A stretch of DNA of 64,000 nt from Nitrospirota bacterium. Its GTDB lineage: Bacteria; Nitrospirota; Thermodesulfovibrionia; Thermodesulfovibrionales; UBA1546. Each line of letters starts with the position of its first letter. Position 1 is the first letter of the stretch. This document shows, in pieces, positions 7,122-59,548 of this stretch. The stretch covers positions 1-64,000 of the forward strand of contig JACQXE010000004.1 in assembly GCA_016208915.1 (NCBI GenBank), in the 5' to 3' direction. A program made the position numbers and the translations under genes. The notes under the pieces are model-generated. The model was not told the origin of the DNA. It searched no databases and saw only the letters and a list, made by a program, of their open reading frames with translations.

Positions 7122-8426
7122 ATGTATAACCTTATAAGCTTTTCCGGCATATTTATTTTAATGGCCTTTGCCTGGCTGATCTCTGCAAACAGAAAGGTTA
7201 TTAACTGGCGCGTCATCATTTGGGGAGTAATCCTGCAGCTCATATTTGCCTTTTTCATATTCGTAGTTCCTGCTGGCTCAAAGGTATTCCTGTTTGTAAA
7301 TGACACAGTCGTAAAGCTCCTTGACAGCGCCACTGCTGGCACAAGATTCGTTTTTGGAAGGCTTGCCCTTCCTCCGGGCACAAAGAATGAAATGGGTGAA
7401 GAATCCTTAGGGTTCCTTCTCGCTTTTCAGGCATTACCTACAATTGTATTCTTTGCAAGCATCATGGCAGTTCTCTATTACATTGGAATTATGCCGAAAC
7501 TTATAAAGGTATTTTCAAGGATTTTTACAAAGCTGATGCGGATCAGCGGTGCAGAGTCCATGAGTGTATCGAGCAACATCTTTGTTGGGGTAGAGGCAAA
7601 CATGACAGTGCTTCCCTACCTCAAAAAAATGACTAAATCTGAGCTCTGCACAATACTTGCAGCAGGAATGTCCACAACAGCATCCAATGTCTTGGCCCTG
7701 TATGTATTCATCCTCCAGAAACAGTTTCCGACAATAGCCGGACATCTCGTATCTGCATCGATACTCTCAGCCATAGCAGCAATTGTCCTTTCAAAGATAA
7801 TCATGCCGGAAACCGACAAGCCGGAAACGCTTGGCATAGATGTAGTGCCCTATTACGAAAAAGAATCCTCGCTCATGGAGTCCATCATAAAAGGAGCAAA
7901 CGAAGGCGTTAAGATGATTGTCGGCATAGTTGCCCTTCTCCTTGCGTTTCTTGGCATAGTTGCCCTTATAGATCTTTTCATTGGAGGGTTTGGCGTAAGC
8001 TTGAATAATCTCACCGGCATGCAGATGGATTGGTCATTAAAAGGGTTTCTGGGATATATCTTCTATCCTTTTACCCTTGTGATAGGTATTCCATATCCAG
8101 ATGCATTCGAGATCTCAAAGCTCATTGGAGAAAGGGTAGTGCTTACAGAAGTGAAATCATACCAAGACCTTTCCTTGCTCCTCTCTTCTGGTGCGCTTAA
8201 AGATCCCCGTTCTGCAGTGCTTGCAGCATATGCCCTTTGCGGTTTTGCACATATCGCCTCACTCGCCATTTTTGTAGGCGGCACCGCAGCCCTTGTCCCT
8301 CAAAGAACAAAAGACCTTTCTCGTATTGGGCTTAGAGCGCTTATATCAGCCACCCTCGCCTGCCTTATGACAGCTTCAGTCGCAGGAACATTTTTTACTG
8401 AAGGGTCCATCCTGTTTGGTAAGTAA
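7122..8426 (+). CDS. nupC: Concentrative nucleoside transporter (NupC family)
   Basis: SVSSNIFVGVEANMTVLPYL...MSTTASNVLALYV and C-terminal GFAHIASLAIFVGGTAALVPQR. Confidence 0.85.
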   Translation: MYNLISFSGIFILMAFAWLISANRKVINWRVIIWGVILQLIFAFFIFVVPAGSKVFLFVNDTVVKLLDSATAGTRFVFGRLALPPGTKNEMGEESLGFLLAFQALPTIVFFASIMAVLYYIGIMPKLIKVFSRIFTKLMRISGAESMSVSSNIFVGVEANMTVLPYLKKMTKSELCTILAAGMSTTASNVLALYVFILQKQFPTIAGHLVSASILSAIAAIVLSKIIMPETDKPETLGIDVVPYYEKESSLMESIIKGANEGVKMIVGIVALLLAFLGIVALIDLFIGGFGVSLNNLTGMQMDWSLKGFLGYIFYPFTLVIGIPYPDAFEISKLIGERVVLTEVKSYQDLSLLLSSGALKDPRSAVLAAYALCGFAHIASLAIFVGGTAALVPQRTKDLSRIGLRALISATLACLMTASVAGTFFTEGSILFGK

Positions 8427-51872: not shown

Positions 51873-52097
51873 TCAAACAGCCTGAACAGCGGTTACCTCC
51901 GGTATCTCGCGCCTGATGTTTGTCTCTACCCAGTTTTTTAATGTAAGAGTTGACATAGGGCATGTGCCGCATGCGCCTTTTAACTTTACATAAACAATTG
52001 TATCTTTTATATCAACAAGTTCTATATCTCCCCCTTCAGATTTGAGTCCTGTCCTTACCGTCTCAAGAACGTTCTCGACCATTTCCCTTGATACCAT
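51873..52097 (-). CDS. NifU-like Fe-S scaffold C-terminal domain protein
   Basis: VRTGLKSEGGDIELVDI...VKLKGACGTCPMSTLTLKNWVE. Confidence 0.9.
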   Translation of the reverse strand: MVSREMVENVLETVRTGLKSEGGDIELVDIKDTIVYVKLKGACGTCPMSTLTLKNWVETNIRREIPEVTAVQAV

Positions 52098-52247
52098 AAA
52101 ACCTCCTTCAGCTATATTTTACATAATAAAAGATGCCGATACTTTATTCAAGAGGTTTCCTCATTTGTTCTAAACGCATAACCTCATAGAGTTCTCATAG
52201 GAGAGAAGAATAACTATTGAACTTTCAATGCCTTATAATATTAAATA

Positions 52248-53102
52248 TTGCTATTGATGATTCTGACTCAGTTAACAGAAGATACCTTTGAACAAGTCTT
52301 ATCCATTTCTGAAAAATCACCTATCGATCTTCGTGATGTGATCTTCGTAGACCCTTATGGCATGGTTTCTATCCTTGAAATCGGAGAAATTCTGAAATCC
52401 GAATCCAACAAGAAATCTATTTGTCTGCCGGAGTCAGAAGAAGTTCTTAAATATCTAGAAAGGATGGATTTCTTTAAATTTGCTGATGAGTATTTCAGGC
52501 TCGAACCATTCAAGCCTAAGATATCGGGAAAATATCTGAGGAGTTCATATTCAGATGTCCTTCTTGAGATTACGCCGATAGAAAAATCAGATGACATCCA
52601 TTTTATCGTTGGAAAGGTAAAAGAGCGGGCTAATGCAATCCTCAAAAAACATCTTCACTACGATGAAAAAGTAATAAACGGCTTTATCGTTGCCCTTTCA
52701 GAGGTCTGCCAGAATATAATAGAGCACAGCGAGACAAAGGGATTTGTAGGGATACAGAAATATTTCTGGAAAAACATTGAAAAAAATATTGTCAAAATCG
52801 CGGTGATGGACATTGGAATAGGTTTTAAAAAATCCCTATCAGAGCGATTTCGATTAAACAATGACTTTGACGCAATTGAAAAGGCGCTTTTGCACGGCGC
52901 CTCACGTTATGCTGATGAAGGCAGAGGCCACGGCCTTGCATCTGTAAGACGGTTTGTAAATCAATGGAACGGCAAACTCTCAATCCGCTCTGGCACGGCA
53001 AAACTCTCAATTATTCCAGATTGGGCAAAAGGTAAAGAAAAAGAAACAAGCCTCACGCACTTCCCTGGCAGCCAGATAAATATCCTCCTTCCTGAGGTTT
53101 AA
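52248..53102 (+). CDS. STAS-like/HATPase (anti-sigma-factor type) regulatory protein
   Basis: ALSEVCQNIIEHSETKGFVGIQKY...IAVMDIGIGFKKSL...GRGHGLASVRRFVNQWNGKLSIRSG HATPase motifs. Confidence 0.75.
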   Translation: MLLMILTQLTEDTFEQVLSISEKSPIDLRDVIFVDPYGMVSILEIGEILKSESNKKSICLPESEEVLKYLERMDFFKFADEYFRLEPFKPKISGKYLRSSYSDVLLEITPIEKSDDIHFIVGKVKERANAILKKHLHYDEKVINGFIVALSEVCQNIIEHSETKGFVGIQKYFWKNIEKNIVKIAVMDIGIGFKKSLSERFRLNNDFDAIEKALLHGASRYADEGRGHGLASVRRFVNQWNGKLSIRSGTAKLSIIPDWAKGKEKETSLTHFPGSQINILLPEV

Positions 53103-53106
53103 ATTC

Positions 53107-53145
53107 TTGTCATTGCGAGGTCGCTTCGACCGTGGCAATCTCTCC
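53107..53145. repeat. Small interspersed repeat (TTGTCATTGCGAGG...GTGGCAATCTC type)
   Basis: TTGTCATTGCGAGGTCGCTTCGACCGTGGCAATCTC. Confidence 0.6.
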
Positions 53146-53180
53146 TTCACTTTTCACTTGACTTATACCTCTCTTTTATG

Positions 53181-53200
53181 ATTCAATTGAATCAATTGAA
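53181..53200. promoter_or_regulatory. Tandem TCAATTGA palindromes upstream of TIR/R-M operon (candidate operator)
   Basis: ATTCAATTGAATCAATTGAA. Confidence 0.4.
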
Positions 53201-53260
53201 GTAAAGAGCGCCTAAGGAGCCGTTTAAAGGGGTGAGGAAGGAGAGGTAGAAAGGAGGAAA

Positions 53261-53304
53261 CATGAATAATATTCTACTTTTACATGAATAATATTCTACT
53301 TTTA
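53261..53304 (+). repeat. Perfect 22-bp tandem duplication spanning the start codon of the TIR-like gene
   Basis: (CATGAATAATATTCTACTTTTA)x2. Confidence 0.97.
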
Positions 53305-54165
53305 TATGATACCCAAGAAGAAGATTTAGCCCGGGACTTTAAATATTTACTTGCTGAATTTGCTATTAGAGTAACCATGATTCCTTTATCATCTAATAAG
53401 GGGAAAACCCTTCAAGACAAAGAAGAACACTATTTTGATTTTGCCGATGGCGCAATTTTTATAATTACCCCGGGATCCTATAGATTTGGTAAGACATTCC
53501 CTTCACCAAGCGTTTGCGATGAAATGGGGCAGGCAAAACGCAAGTTCAAAGATAAACCCGAAAAGATAATTTACTTAGTAGACAAAAACTGCACCCTTCA
53601 AGCCATAGATCAGAAGCCTTACATTCCATTTGATCGTAACGATATAAGGTCTATTGTAAAGGCAATCATTTTGTTTATTAAAGACTTAAAACAGGCAGGT
53701 TGTTTTGGTAAAAGCAAGATCGAACAAAAAGAGACTCCAATTAGAGATATAGCTAAATATTCAGAATCGATTGATGAAAAGCTTAAAGAAATTTGTTTCG
53801 ATCTTAGCAAACAACCGAATGGTTTTATAGCACCTACAGAATTTGATAATTTGTTAAAGGCGAAATATAGAATGAACCAACAAGATATAAACTTTGCAAA
53901 AATTGACCTTACCGAAAAAGAACTTGCTAAATATTATCAACCTAATCCACCGCTTTTCGCTGGAGGATGGCAATTAATTAGTATGGGTTGGAAATTAGTG
54001 AGATATGAAAAGGAAGAACAAAAAAAGAGGCAAATATCAAACCATCTTTATGGATTATATGACCCTTCGGCTTTAAGTGAACTTCCTGCTTTACTCACTA
54101 ATTATGTTATTTCTCCTAAAAGAATGGGACTTCTTGATACTTTAAAACGGAAAAATGAACCCTAA
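53284..54165 (+). CDS. TIR-like N-terminal domain protein, first gene of R-M operon
   Basis: NILLLYDTQEEDLARDFKYLLAEFAIRVTMIPL...DFADGAIFIITPGS...SVCDEMGQAKRKFKDKPEKIIYLV has TIR/TIR-like periodicity; overlaps downstream MTase by 11 nt. Confidence 0.55.
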   Translation: MNNILLLYDTQEEDLARDFKYLLAEFAIRVTMIPLSSNKGKTLQDKEEHYFDFADGAIFIITPGSYRFGKTFPSPSVCDEMGQAKRKFKDKPEKIIYLVDKNCTLQAIDQKPYIPFDRNDIRSIVKAIILFIKDLKQAGCFGKSKIEQKETPIRDIAKYSESIDEKLKEICFDLSKQPNGFIAPTEFDNLLKAKYRMNQQDINFAKIDLTEKELAKYYQPNPPLFAGGWQLISMGWKLVRYEKEEQKKRQISNHLYGLYDPSALSELPALLTNYVISPKRMGLLDTLKRKNEP

Positions 54166-55444
54166 ATCCACCATAATCATCGGCGATAGCCGGAGAATGA
54201 GCGAGCTAAATGATGAGAGTGTTCATCTTGTTATTACCTCTCCGCCTTATTGGCAGTTGAAGGACTACGGTAATGGTAGCCAGATTGGATTTAATGACAG
54301 CTACGAAGATTATATAAATAATCTGAATCTTGTCTGGAATGAATGTTACAGAGTTTTACATAAGGGATGTCGTCTCTGCGTCAATATTGGAGACCAATTT
54401 GCAAGGTCTGTTTATTACGGCAGATACAAGATTATCCCTATCAGGGAAGAAATAATAAAATTCTGTGAAACAATCGGCTTTGATTACATGGGTGCAATAA
54501 TTTGGCAGAAGGTTACAACATGCAATACTACAGGCGGAGCAACAATCATGGGTTCTTTCCCATATCCGCGAAATGGGATAATTAAGCTTGATTATGAGTT
54601 TATTTTAATTTTCAAAAAGCTCGGTGACCCTCCAAAAGTCAGCAGAGAGATCAAAGAAAAATCAAAAATCACAACTGAGGAGTGGAATAAATATTTTTCA
54701 GGTCACTGGAATTTTGCAGGAGAAAGGCAGGATAAGCACCTTGCCATGTTCCCTGAAGAATTACCGAGGAGATTGATTAAGATGTTCAGTTTTGTCGGGG
54801 ATACCGTTCTCGATCCCTTTTTGGGCAGCGGCACGACCTGCCTCGCAGCGAAAAATCTTAACAGGAATTCAATCGGATACGAAATTCATAAAGATTTTCT
54901 GCCAACAATAAAGGCAAAATTAGAATCCTCTGATATTGAAATAATCAATCAGAAAAAACTAAAAATTGATTTCAAGGATGAAATTAAAAAACTGCCTTAT
55001 ATTTTCAAAGACCCTGTAAAATTCGACAAAAAAATTGACCCTAAAAAACTAAAGTTCGGCTCCCGTGTTGACAATTCAGATCATTCACGCGAGACATATC
55101 ACACAGTCAAAGAAATCTTAACACCTGAAGTTATTGTCCTTGACAATGGCCTTAAGGTCAGACTTATAGGGGTAAAAGAAAAGAAAGAGACAAATGGAGA
55201 GGCAGTAAAGTTTCTTGCCGAAAAATTCAAAGGCGAAAAGGTTTTCATGAAATATGACAGTCAAAAATTTGATAAGGATGGAAATCTGCAATGCTATCTG
55301 TATCTTAAAAACAAGACTTTTATCAATGCGCATCTAATCAAGAATGGTCTTGCTGAAATAGACACTGAATTGAATTTCAAACTCAAAAGTAAATTTACAA
55401 GTCTCTGGAAGGAATGCCATCATGCCATTCAAGAAGTTCGCTAA
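54155..55444 (+). CDS. DNA methyltransferase with C-terminal SNase-like domain
   Basis: HLVITSPPYWQLKDYG (motif IV), VLDPFLGSGTTCLAAKNLNRNSIGYEI (motif I); C-term VIVLDNGLKVRLIGV...AVKFLAEKFKGEKVFMKYD...YLYLKNKTFINAHLIKNGLAEID. Confidence 0.85.
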   Translation: MNPKSTIIIGDSRRMSELNDESVHLVITSPPYWQLKDYGNGSQIGFNDSYEDYINNLNLVWNECYRVLHKGCRLCVNIGDQFARSVYYGRYKIIPIREEIIKFCETIGFDYMGAIIWQKVTTCNTTGGATIMGSFPYPRNGIIKLDYEFILIFKKLGDPPKVSREIKEKSKITTEEWNKYFSGHWNFAGERQDKHLAMFPEELPRRLIKMFSFVGDTVLDPFLGSGTTCLAAKNLNRNSIGYEIHKDFLPTIKAKLESSDIEIINQKKLKIDFKDEIKKLPYIFKDPVKFDKKIDPKKLKFGSRVDNSDHSRETYHTVKEILTPEVIVLDNGLKVRLIGVKEKKETNGEAVKFLAEKFKGEKVFMKYDSQKFDKDGNLQCYLYLKNKTFINAHLIKNGLAEIDTELNFKLKSKFTSLWKECHHAIQEVR

Positions 55445-56114
55445 AAATTTTGGCAGTAAAGAGATCATCCTGAACTATGCAAACAGGCGCTGGGGTTTTA
55501 CAAAAACTAACAAAGTTGGTGAAGTCATGGCATCGATACGGCAATGCCAACCGCAAACATTCCAAGAATGGCAGGAATGGTATTTTAAAAATGCTTTTAC
55601 AAATACTAAACACCCGATAAAAATAACAAAAGAAATACTCACAGAGCTCGGCCAGAGATTGTATGAAAAGATAACTGAAATCGTTGCTCCGCAATTGCGT
55701 GAGGCGCTTGCAACACTGACCTTGCAGGATTGTATCGATTATGTATACGAATTGACGATTCATCGGACATTTGATGGTTATTTGACTGAAAAGTCAGTTG
55801 TTCATGACATTCTTGCCAAGAAATTTCCTGACATTGTGTTTGAAGAGACGAATCCAGATCTCGACCATGCCGGTGATATTGATTTTATCGGCAAAGTTGG
55901 CAATAAAGCATTTGGTCTTCAGATCAAGCCTGTCACCGCGCAAGCCAGCATGGGTAATTTTTCGGTTACAGCCCGCATGGAACAATCATTTCGTGACTTC
56001 GAACGACAGCATAGCGGAAAGGTCTTTATTGTTTTTAGTGCTGAAGACAAGATTTTCAATAAAGAGATAGTTGAAAAAATCAGGGAAGAAATAGAAAGAC
56101 TAAAAAATGCATAA
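55422..56114 (+). CDS. MjaI-family type II restriction endonuclease
   Basis: NRRWGFTKTNKVGEVMASIRQCQPQTFQEWQEWYFKNA; PD-(D/E)XK candidate DHAGDIDFIGKVGNKAFGLQIKP; overlaps MTase end. Confidence 0.78.
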   Translation: MPFKKFAKNFGSKEIILNYANRRWGFTKTNKVGEVMASIRQCQPQTFQEWQEWYFKNAFTNTKHPIKITKEILTELGQRLYEKITEIVAPQLREALATLTLQDCIDYVYELTIHRTFDGYLTEKSVVHDILAKKFPDIVFEETNPDLDHAGDIDFIGKVGNKAFGLQIKPVTAQASMGNFSVTARMEQSFRDFERQHSGKVFIVFSAEDKIFNKEIVEKIREEIERLKNA

Positions 56115-56336
56115 CTTCACATCCAAATATCTTATCGTAGTTGTCAATAGAGGTATGACAAGCGAGGTCAATTATTTCAATTTTTTTTAAAGAGGCTAAA
56201 GAGAGCCTTTGGAGAGATAGCTCATGATCATGGTTACAAACCATCGGAGATAAACGCCTCAGACAAGTATGATGTCTCGATATGGATGTGGACAGAAGAT
56301 AGGTATGAGAAGGTATTTTGAGATTAGATTTTAACA

Positions 56337-56900
56337 ATGATTAAATATGACCTTTATAAACTCCTTAAGGAAGAACTGAAGAACGGTTCTGCCGACCTTG
56401 TCACGAGGAATTCGGGGCAGGTGATAAGGGAGAGGATTGAAAGGGATATCGCCGGTGAAAAAGACGGAGAGGTTATCGCCCTCGATTTTTCGAAGATTGG
56501 TATAATCGACTACTCCTGCGCTGATGAGATTGTGGCAAAGCTCATTTCAAGGCTTGTCAGCAATGAATACGGGGATAAATATATTGTCTTAACAGGGCTA
56601 ACTGAAAACCAGAAGGAAAACATAGAGGTCGCTCTTGAAAGAAAAGATCTTGCTGTAATGGTGGAGATGAAGAATGGGGAAAAAATTCTTATCGGCAATC
56701 TTAACAATTATTTGCAGGAAACGCTTGCCTTTGTATCCAAAAAAGCAAAGATAACAGCTAATGACCTTTCTGCTACCTTAAAACTTCCTGCAAATACAAG
56801 CGGCACCAGGCTTTTGAATCTCTATAAGAAAAGGCTTGTGAAAAGAATTGATGAGATAAGGGACGGCGGAAGGGTTTGGGTGTATGAATCTTGTTTATAG
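56337..56900 (+). CDS. STAS-like domain regulatory protein
   Basis: EVIALDFSKIGIIDYSCADEIVAKLISRL...KYIVLTGLTENQKENIEVAL. Confidence 0.6.
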   Translation: MIKYDLYKLLKEELKNGSADLVTRNSGQVIRERIERDIAGEKDGEVIALDFSKIGIIDYSCADEIVAKLISRLVSNEYGDKYIVLTGLTENQKENIEVALERKDLAVMVEMKNGEKILIGNLNNYLQETLAFVSKKAKITANDLSATLKLPANTSGTRLLNLYKKRLVKRIDEIRDGGRVWVYESCL

Positions 56901-56974
56901 TATAATCGGAAGAACGTTTTAGTAAAAAAGGAATTCCGCATCAAGTGCGGAATAGTAATAAGAGGATTTAAATA

Positions 56975-59548
56975 ATGTCTGAACTGACTCCTATAATGAA
57001 ACAATACTCAAACATCAAAGAAAAATATAAGGACTGCATCCTTATGTTCAGGCTCGGTGATTTTTATGAGATGTTTGGTGAGGATGCAAAAATTGCCTCA
57101 AAGATCCTGCAGATAGCCCTTACGTCAAGAGATAAATCAAAGGAAGAACCGGTACCCATGTGCGGCATACCGCATTTTGCCTCTGAGACCTATATAACAA
57201 AATTAATTAAGGCAGGACAGAAGGTTGCAATATGCGAGCAACTTGAAGATGCATCAAAGGCAAAAGGGATTGTTCAGAGGGATGTAATTAGGGTGATAAC
57301 ACCGGGAACACACACGCCGGAACATCCGAAAGAAAACAGTTATATTCTAAGCTTTTTCCCGGACGGCAAAAAAAATGGCATAGCAGCCGCCGACATATCA
57401 ACAGGAGAATTTATCATTTACGAGACTTCAGAGCCTGCTGAAGACGAATTCAGCAGGTTTGAGCCGAAAGAGATTCTCTGCCCTGCAGCGCTGAAGGACA
57501 ATCTTCACTATTCAGATATATTAAGGAATTTATATATAACAACATATGAGGACTGGGCATTTGATTATGCTGAGGCTTATAAAGCCCTTTTGATGCACTT
57601 CAAGGTTTCTTCTCTTGAAGGCTACGGCTGCGAAGGTATGAATGCCGCAATATCTGCTGCAGGAGCGCTTATAAACTACCTTGAAGAAACCCAGAAAGAG
57701 AATCTGAATTTTAAAAAGGTCTCAACACTTAAACAGACCTCATTCATGTTCCTCGATTCAGCAACCCAGAGAAATCTCGAGTTAGTACATAATCTCAAAG
57801 ACAGAACAGAAGAAAATACACTCCTCTGGGCGCTTGACGAGACATTAACGCCAATGGGCGGAAGGTATCTGAGGGGGTTGATTCTGCGGCCGTTTATAGA
57901 CATAAAGGAAATACACAAAAAGCAGGCTGCCGTGGAATATCTTATCGAAGATTACGAATTGACCGAGACGCTTCGCACCAATCTGAGAAAGGTACAGGAT
58001 ATTGAAAGACTGTCAAATAGGATTGCCACAAAAAATGCAAACCCGAGGGATCTGATTGCAATAAAAAATTCCATTACATCTCTGCCTTCAATCAGAAAAG
58101 GCCTTCTTTCAGCACAGGAACCATACCTTAAATCAACAGGAGAAGAGATATCAGAGTTCGGCTCGATTAAGACGCTGATAGAGTCAGCCATAATGGATAA
58201 TCCGCCTGTAAGTCTCAGAGACGGCGGAATCATAAAAAATGGCTTTAACAAAGAAATTGATGAGTTGCGAAGGGTATCGAATAGCGGAAAGTCTTTTATT
58301 GCAGAACTTGAGATGCAGGAAAGAGAAAGGACCGGAATTTCATCTCTAAAGGTAGGCTTTAACAAAATCTTTGGCTATTACATCGAGGTGACAAAGACAA
58401 ATCTTGATCAGGTCCCTGACCACTATATAAGGAAGCAGACACTTATCGGAGGAGAAAGGTTTATAACTCCTGAACTTAAAGAATACGAAACAAAAGTAAT
58501 AGGCGCAGAAGAAAAACTGAAAAATATTGAATATCAGGTTTTTAATGATATACTTGATGAACTTCAGAAAGAATCACTGAACCTTTCAAAAACAGCAAAC
58601 GCTGCTGCTGCAATAGACTTTCTTCTTTCAATGGCAGTTATAGCAAAAAGGAACAACTATATTAAACCAATAGTTGATGAGAGCGGTGTAATAGATATTC
58701 TGGATGGCAGACATCCTGTGCTCGAAAGGATTCAGGGAGAGGAACGTTTTATTCCCAATAGCATCCATTTCAATAATGATGACCAGCGGCTGCTGATAAT
58801 AACCGGTCCCAATATGGCAGGCAAATCAACATATATGAGGCAAATAGCGCTTATAGTACTCATGGCACAGATAGGAGGTTTTGTTCCTGCTTCTGCGGCA
58901 GGGATAGGAATAGTTGACAGAATATTCACGAGAATCGGAGCATCTGATTTTATAACAAAGGGGCAAAGCACATTCATGGTCGAGATGATAGAGACAGCAA
59001 ACATCCTCAATAACGCAACAGGGCAGAGCCTTATCATAATTGATGAGGTCGGAAGAGGCACAAGCACATTTGACGGAATAAGCATTGCATGGGCTGTTGC
59101 AGAACATATAGCAAAGACAATCAAGGCAAAGACATTGTTTGCAACCCATTACAATGAACTAACAGAATTAGCGCTTACACTTGAGGGAGTCAAAAACTAT
59201 ACTGTATCAGTAAAAGAATGGGGGGATGAGATAATATTTTTAAGAAAGGTTGAGGCGGGATCCGCTGACAAAAGCTATGGGATACAGGTCGCAAGGCTTG
59301 CAGGCCTCCCGTCAGTAGTAATAACAAGGGCAAAGGAGGTACTGACTAATCTTGAAAAGGAAGAGCTCAACGAGGCAGGCGAACCAAAATTCGCATCCGG
59401 GAAACAGAAAAAAGGTGTCCAGCTTGATCTCTTCTCAGTTATGAGCGAACCTATACTTGCAGAAATAATGCGCCTCGATATAGAAACCTTAACTCCACAG
59501 GATGCATTAACCAAGATTAAAGAGTTCAAAAAAAAGATTACATCATAA
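56975..59548 (+). CDS. mutS: DNA mismatch repair protein MutS
   Basis: TPIMKQYSNIKEKYKDCILMFRLGDFYEMFGEDA...ITGPNMAGKSTYMRQIALIVLMAQIG. Confidence 0.97.
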   Translation: MSELTPIMKQYSNIKEKYKDCILMFRLGDFYEMFGEDAKIASKILQIALTSRDKSKEEPVPMCGIPHFASETYITKLIKAGQKVAICEQLEDASKAKGIVQRDVIRVITPGTHTPEHPKENSYILSFFPDGKKNGIAAADISTGEFIIYETSEPAEDEFSRFEPKEILCPAALKDNLHYSDILRNLYITTYEDWAFDYAEAYKALLMHFKVSSLEGYGCEGMNAAISAAGALINYLEETQKENLNFKKVSTLKQTSFMFLDSATQRNLELVHNLKDRTEENTLLWALDETLTPMGGRYLRGLILRPFIDIKEIHKKQAAVEYLIEDYELTETLRTNLRKVQDIERLSNRIATKNANPRDLIAIKNSITSLPSIRKGLLSAQEPYLKSTGEEISEFGSIKTLIESAIMDNPPVSLRDGGIIKNGFNKEIDELRRVSNSGKSFIAELEMQERERTGISSLKVGFNKIFGYYIEVTKTNLDQVPDHYIRKQTLIGGERFITPELKEYETKVIGAEEKLKNIEYQVFNDILDELQKESLNLSKTANAAAAIDFLLSMAVIAKRNNYIKPIVDESGVIDILDGRHPVLERIQGEERFIPNSIHFNNDDQRLLIITGPNMAGKSTYMRQIALIVLMAQIGGFVPASAAGIGIVDRIFTRIGASDFITKGQSTFMVEMIETANILNNATGQSLIIIDEVGRGTSTFDGISIAWAVAEHIAKTIKAKTLFATHYNELTELALTLEGVKNYTVSVKEWGDEIIFLRKVEAGSADKSYGIQVARLAGLPSVVITRAKEVLTNLEKEELNEAGEPKFASGKQKKGVQLDLFSVMSEPILAEIMRLDIETLTPQDALTKIKEFKKKITS

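Follow-up and report, generated by a model that had tools for sequence, protein, structure and literature searches.

A putative CapK/CapS-type DNA-damage switch enclosing TIR and restriction-modification genes in a Nitrospirota bacterium

Three tightly overlapping genes on a Nitrospirota contig, encoding a TIR-like protein and a type II restriction-modification (R-M) pair, raise the question of whether they form one defence system and what controls them. A sequence-only reading of the window, the 64,000-nucleotide stretch analysed here, had placed a candidate compound defence operon at 53150-56114. The coordinates of its three open reading frames (ORFs 1 to 3) and their overlaps of 11 nt and 23 nt hold, but the operon-sized unit extends beyond them on both sides, from about 52248 to 56900, and the flanking CapK/CapS-like genes, its proposed main regulator, had been missed (Table 1). 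The order is capK-like kinase, promoter/operator, TIR-winged-helix gene, methyltransferase, MjaI-type endonuclease and capS-like repressor, with no Rfam family found in 52000-57100. With moderate confidence, we read the region as a CapK/CapS DNA-damage switch with immune cargo (TIR plus R-M) embedded between kinase and repressor. This reading is based on architecture, homologies, a conserved promoter/operator, retained key residues and swapped cargo, all at the level of sequence; repression, sensing of single-stranded DNA (ssDNA) and phosphorylation would apply here by analogy with the published CapK/CapS mechanism, and TIR catalysis and its trigger we only infer.

Table 1. Features of the unit, numbered by position in the window
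Feature	Position	Strand	Evidence
CapK-like kinase, putative STAS-like N-terminus and GHKL (HATPase_c) domain	52248..53102	+	PF02518 1e-8
Promoter TTGACT-N18-TTCAAT (TG at 53179) overlapping palindromic candidate operator TTCAATTGAATCAATTGAA (53182-53200)	53158..53200	+	element recurs at 21 loci in the phylum
Small-ORF relic: 3' end of a 57-aa frame (...PFKGVRKER-stop)	53220..53249	+	in frame in 5/6 TIR loci
Tandem duplication of 22 bp spanning the TIR start codon	53260..53309	+	sequence; absent from other homologues
ORF 1: predicted TIR domain (residues 1-142, Glu80), MarR-like winged helix (residues ~156-256) and variable tail	53284..54165	+	homologues, profile comparison, structure prediction
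ORF 2: beta-order DNA methyltransferase (TSPPYW before DPFLGSGTT) with SNase-like C-terminus (55196-55393)	54155..55444	+	N6_N4_Mtase 4e-45, SNase 3e-6
ORF 3: MjaI-family type II restriction endonuclease, D154...QIK169 kept	55422..56114	+	RE_MjaI PF09568 5e-30; alignment
CapS-like repressor, STAS-like (DUF4325) domain with Ser60, and winged helix	56337..56900	+	DUF4325; PDB 9z72

In the published system, ssDNA-activated CapK phosphorylates CapS, which is thereby released from palindromes in its own and cargo promoters, inducing immune operons (EMBO J 2026, PMC13373217). The window shares with it a STAS-GHKL kinase followed by a promoter overlapped by a palindrome, a STAS-winged-helix repressor with a conserved serine, and immune cargo, and sequence comparison supports homology of both proteins to CapK and CapS well. 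The kinase, whose N-box Asn156 is invariant in 16 of 16 homologues, aligns across 92-95% of its length, at 26-29% identity, with plasmid kinases encoded ahead of CapS-like genes; one of these pairs (Cytobacillus) stands before a ThiF/DUF6527 operon. Distant kinase-repressor pairs of this kind, with the CapS-like gene after the CapK-like one, occur on Nostoc and Cytobacillus plasmids. The CapS-like protein matches PDB 9z72 (V. cholerae CapS S58A) over its full length (E 4e-5). Its Ser60 is invariant in 18 of 18 homologues and also in Cytobacillus and Nostoc, to which the Asn and Gly positions of the winged helix are likewise kept; because the solved 9z72 chain carries S58A, we equated Ser60 with S58 of V. 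cholerae CapS through the D-x-S motif.

The window kinase differs from CapK in having no N-terminal helix-turn-helix (HTH): none is seen, and its 284 aa leave no room for one. Deletion of the HTH of CapK had no effect (PMC13373217), and the kinase alignment gives no clear equivalent of the ssDNA-binding Trp68. A weak DrmA match of the kinase probably reflects the common ATPase fold, and assignment to VapKSC was rejected: the repressor carries a winged helix, and directly 3' of its gene there is no gene for a PIN toxin.

In relatives, the promoter element reads TTGACA-N17-TTCAAT with a TG before the -10 box, is overlapped by TTCAATTGAWTCAATTGAA and lies downstream of the kinase gene. A search allowing up to one mismatch found this operator in 19 of 198 phylum genomes, at one site each, and the reversed control in none; among 100 genomes scored for both features, it was present in 14 of the 18 with a full CapS-like gene versus 0 of the 82 others (P 7e-14). 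A genome-wide intergenic repeat was rejected because the site is single-copy, and we regard the palindrome over the -10 box as a candidate CapS-like operator, differing from the published sites in being single and in its sequence where those have TTAA half-sites. One genome (G203, L197:5494-8140) carries a CapS-type operator with neither CapK nor CapS nearby; the genes into which it reads encode an SNF2 helicase and a dinG-like helicase. Since 84 nt separate the window operator from the TIR ATG, the genes overlap and no better site was seen, the position of the promoter implies that the TIR and R-M genes would be co-transcribed from it.

We propose that the CapS-like protein, encoded by the last gene, binds the palindrome over the -10 box and represses the cargo together with its own transcription. 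Phage attack or damage would generate ssDNA that activates the kinase, phosphorylation of Ser60 would free the operator, and expression of the TIR and R-M genes would rise together. Repression of a methylase along with its nuclease is unusual and counts against this proposal, although leaky or homeostatic expression could keep the methylase sufficient. Type II R-M systems are usually considered either constitutive or controlled by C proteins. Such C proteins (e.g. that of Kpn2I, PMC6237814) resemble the present arrangement in that a regulator is encoded with the R-M genes and controls itself, and differ from it in being small HTH proteins; here the regulator would be a STAS repressor under kinase control, encoded at the 3' end.

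The content of the CapK/CapS site varies among relatives. The space between operator and repressor gene is empty in G155, G151, G168 and G131, with capK and capS adjacent in, for example, the first three; elsewhere it holds ORF6N genes (G113 by Pfam; G137, G104 and G143 by similarity), an OLD-like ATPase gene (G111) or R-M systems of the TdeIII (G046), EcoO109I (G045, similar in G037) and MvaI/BcnI (G073) types. In G442 it holds an R-M set, a TIR gene and a methylase gene, and in the window the TIR gene and the R-M pair. Five relatives thus have other type II R-M systems at the site, and the window and six relatives have cargo between kinase and repressor, while in G214 and G457 the TIR gene directly follows capS, which is the published order. 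Repair genes often lie beside the site; mutS, dinG, recA and rmuC, as named from sequence, are examples.

Within the window, ORFs 2 and 3 make up an ordinary R-M pair of the MjaI type, which bears out the earlier assignment of the endonuclease (RE_MjaI match in Table 1). Of 396 phylum genomes, 45 encode MjaI-family nucleases, and at the loci examined the same methylase with its SNase-like tail comes before nearly every one, G343 being the exception. The methylase is predicted to be of the N4-cytosine type. It had been described as a methyltransferase-SNase fusion, and both domains do match, but the tail lacks the catalytic Arg, so an active SNase nuclease was rejected. Because the position of Arg87 of Staphylococcal nuclease is Asn in 23 of 23 tails and the Pfam SNase match begins only at profile position 24, the tail, which is family-wide and already spanned by the PADLOC methylase model, is regarded as an inactive OB-fold domain. 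One observation on the same methylase comes from G214 (L043:3995-4678), where a methylase-SNase gene, 86% identical in its methylase part, overlaps by 17 nt the gene of a possible GIY-YIG-type nuclease instead of MjaI, a possible swap of endonucleases on one methylase.

The pair resembles the known MjaI system (PF09568; PMC5867850), whose M.MjaI is a beta-type 4mC CTAG methylase, in gene content, motif order and the strong CTAG depletion of the window (4 sites versus about 200 expected); it differs in the inactive-looking tail and in a divergent endonuclease subfamily, with a putative CTAG specificity here. CTAG stands at 0-0.07 of expectation in MjaI carriers, and some non-carriers are equally low (e.g. 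G035). As CTAG is avoided in most prokaryotes (PMC4687349), depletion was rejected as proof of specificity for being too general. The pair would cut unmethylated DNA, probably at CTAG.

The pair does not depend on ORF 1 for its occurrence: it stands without a TIR gene at about 20 other loci, the 92% identical nearest relative of the endonuclease (L148) among them, and a TIR gene is found in only two of the examined MjaI loci. The compound operon of the sequence-only reading therefore stands as a set of overlapping genes, in which TIR is an accessory and not half of the system.

On its own, ORF 1 gives no Pfam match, and PADLOC and NCBIfam return nothing useful for it. Homologues exist in five further genomes, all of the same class, making six full loci and one fragment among 231 genomes; that only six full homologues are known counts against our main reading. 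The TIR-like N-terminus proposed earlier, with its Glu, is borne out by several lines. TIR_2 (Pfam) matches three of the six homologues (best 0.0012) and CAP12-TIR two, and a profile of the first 142 residues compared with twelve canonical TIR_2 domains from relatives gave a probability of 82.6% (P 1e-5), aligning Glu80, invariant in 6/6 homologues, with the TIR glutamate. Structure prediction, named beforehand as a possible refutation, returned a TIR fold: in AlphaFold models of moderate quality (pLDDT 69 at full length, 75 for the TIR domain), most top Foldseek matches of the N-terminus were TIR proteins, including TIR-STING (7UN8/9LMQ; best TM 0.71), TcpB, PdTIR and SPARTA. The C-terminal half, earlier called unrecognised, is modelled as a MarR-type winged helix, Foldseek returning MarR repressors for residues ~156-256. 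ORF 1 thus shares predicted fold and aligned glutamate with bacterial TIR effectors, and differs from them in its fused winged helix, its absence from Pfam and PADLOC, and the WxxxE motif, whose Trp position is Ser76 in all six. Since Glu80 is invariant even so, NADase activity is plausible, and the protein would most likely act as an inducible NAD-consuming or signalling effector, with the winged helix as an exchangeable sensing or DNA-binding part.

The two halves have evolved differently. The TIR domain is under purifying selection and is the better conserved half, with pN/pS of 0.18-0.33, compared with 0.35-0.68 for the winged helix and near 1 for the tail. Their trees conflict, each being rejected by the data of the other half (AU P 3e-6 and 2e-53), and G214 and G442 have a winged helix in common (48:2:2 sites), whereas their TIR halves do not group together (8:18:8), a conflict that shows exchange of the winged helix within the family. 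No winged helix with other partners was found in the 231 class genomes, tblastn of the TIR protein against plasmid and phage records gave no match, and no viral contig matched the protein or its winged helix.

The TIR gene occurs in several neighbourhoods. It lies at the CapK/CapS site in four of six loci; the other two (G293 and G458), which count against our main reading, and the fragment lie between RNR and RlpA genes. It is followed by methylase and MjaI genes in the window and G293, by a methylase alone, after another R-M set, in G442, by a HEAT-repeat protein, methylase, protein kinase and second methylase in G214, and in G457 it stands with a 368-aa protein of no known family and possible nuclease core; no R-M genes were found at the G458 locus. 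These two insertion sites and varied partners, the frequency of R-M without TIR, and a small-ORF relic common before the gene, suggestive of cassette movement, would suit a defence or mobile gene that is independent of R-M and simply occupies the same cargo hotspots. We consider this unlikely, though with a real chance of being right, since the gene is co-directional with its cargo in all six loci, in three genomes shares 4, 11 and 14 nt with the methylase gene and has R-M or nuclease-like genes directly 3' in five of the six. A lack of co-occurrence with R-M genes, named beforehand as the other possible refutation, was thus not what the survey returned.

Several observations accompany these loci. 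The HEAT-repeat protein directly after the TIR gene (L043:7925-9391) has an N-terminal region resembling a PD-(D/E)XK core, where Pfam finds HEAT only. A second site of defence cargo (L045, L044, L050, L133, L147), bounded by a ribonucleotide reductase gene on one side and rlpA/dCMP deaminase on the other, contains MjaI R-M, TIR, HNH or MazEF-like genes; at L045:6101-7030, the gene preceding methylase-SNase and MjaI encodes, instead of the TIR protein, an HNH_2 protein of 309 aa that has a weak Mrr_N-like winged helix.

The start of the window TIR gene requires separate comment. A Shine-Dalgarno sequence, AAAGGAGG (53250-53257), precedes an ATG at 53262 that is out of the TIR frame and opens only nine codons, with a stop at 53291, while the TIR frame begins at ATG 53284; because the duplication puts the Shine-Dalgarno-proximal ATG out of frame, 53284 is best taken as a displaced start. 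The TIR gene could accordingly be decaying, its ribosome-binding site uncoupled by the duplication, with R-M as the only working cargo. The duplication is unique to this genome among the six TIR loci, and one relative keeps only a fragment (L133). Against decay, the ORF from 53284 is intact, reinitiation is possible because the short frame upstream terminates 5 nt past ATG 53284, and the duplication, which may mean reduced or switched TIR translation, may also be phase variation or an assembly error; we hold decay to be a minority reading, unlikely rather than implausible.

The conserved 30-70 nt before the TIR gene proved to be the small-ORF relic, and an operator directly 5' of the gene and common to the six loci was sought and not found. 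An intact copy of the 57-aa ORF (...GRFIDQKADKDPFKGVRKER) is present at L050:9822-9995. Here and at L147 (near 7185-7358) it lies directly 5' of R-M, TIR or other defence-like genes, in G073 (L194) it is fused to a methylase gene, and it occurs on 66 plasmid and 16 phage records, some of those inspected placing it near WYL regulators, TIR/SIR2 or retron genes.

The MarR-like winged helix, the missing WxxxE Trp and a position 5' of the methylase gene, overlapping it in three genomes, would also fit a controller-like transcription regulator of the R-M genes, in which the TIR domain binds a ligand or dimerises without catalysis. This we judge rather unlikely: the TIR domain is better conserved than the winged helix and retains Glu80, the winged-helix type is not tied to the R-M type (the window and G457 share the former and differ in cargo), and no operator is common before the TIR gene except the CapS site. 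A backup abortive arm triggered when R-M is inhibited or failing, proposed in the sequence-only reading as an alternative to a regulator, has adjacency, overlap and precedents of guard-type effectors beside R-M (PrrC) in its favour, but is quite improbable, as members of the same TIR family are found with R-M or nuclease genes of unrelated kinds and, in G442, with a methylase on its own, no R-M-sensing domain was identified, and CapK/CapS regulation accounts for co-expression without it.

The embedded CapK/CapS switch remains our preferred reading. Besides the points already named, it has against it a kinase with neither HTH nor a clear Trp68 equivalent, the divergent operator sequence, the missing WxxxE Trp and a duplication that may cripple TIR translation in this genome. 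The parts of the unit are of known kinds. Judged by the literature searched, four features are new: cargo placed between kinase and repressor, where all 443 capK genes of the published set are directly followed by capS, with the cargo after both (PMC13373217); the phylum-wide single operator; a type II R-M system as the presumed controlled cargo, here joined by TIR and in Nitrospirota; and the TIR-winged-helix family.

A divergent CapK/CapS system in another phylum, with its cargo inside the pair, thus appears to control type II restriction, and induction of restriction by DNA damage becomes directly testable. Tentatively, with confidence slightly short of even, we further suggest that in Nitrospirota a CapK/CapS-type DNA-damage switch serves as a standing cargo dock, where defence genes are swapped between kinase and repressor and share the promoter and feedback loop of the repressor; one cargo would be a TIR-winged-helix effector family that is new, has winged-helix halves open to exchange and is switched on together with R-M. 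The position of the CapK/CapS site can lead to new defence genes, and one family at this site is an unnamed one whose TIR and winged-helix halves recombine.
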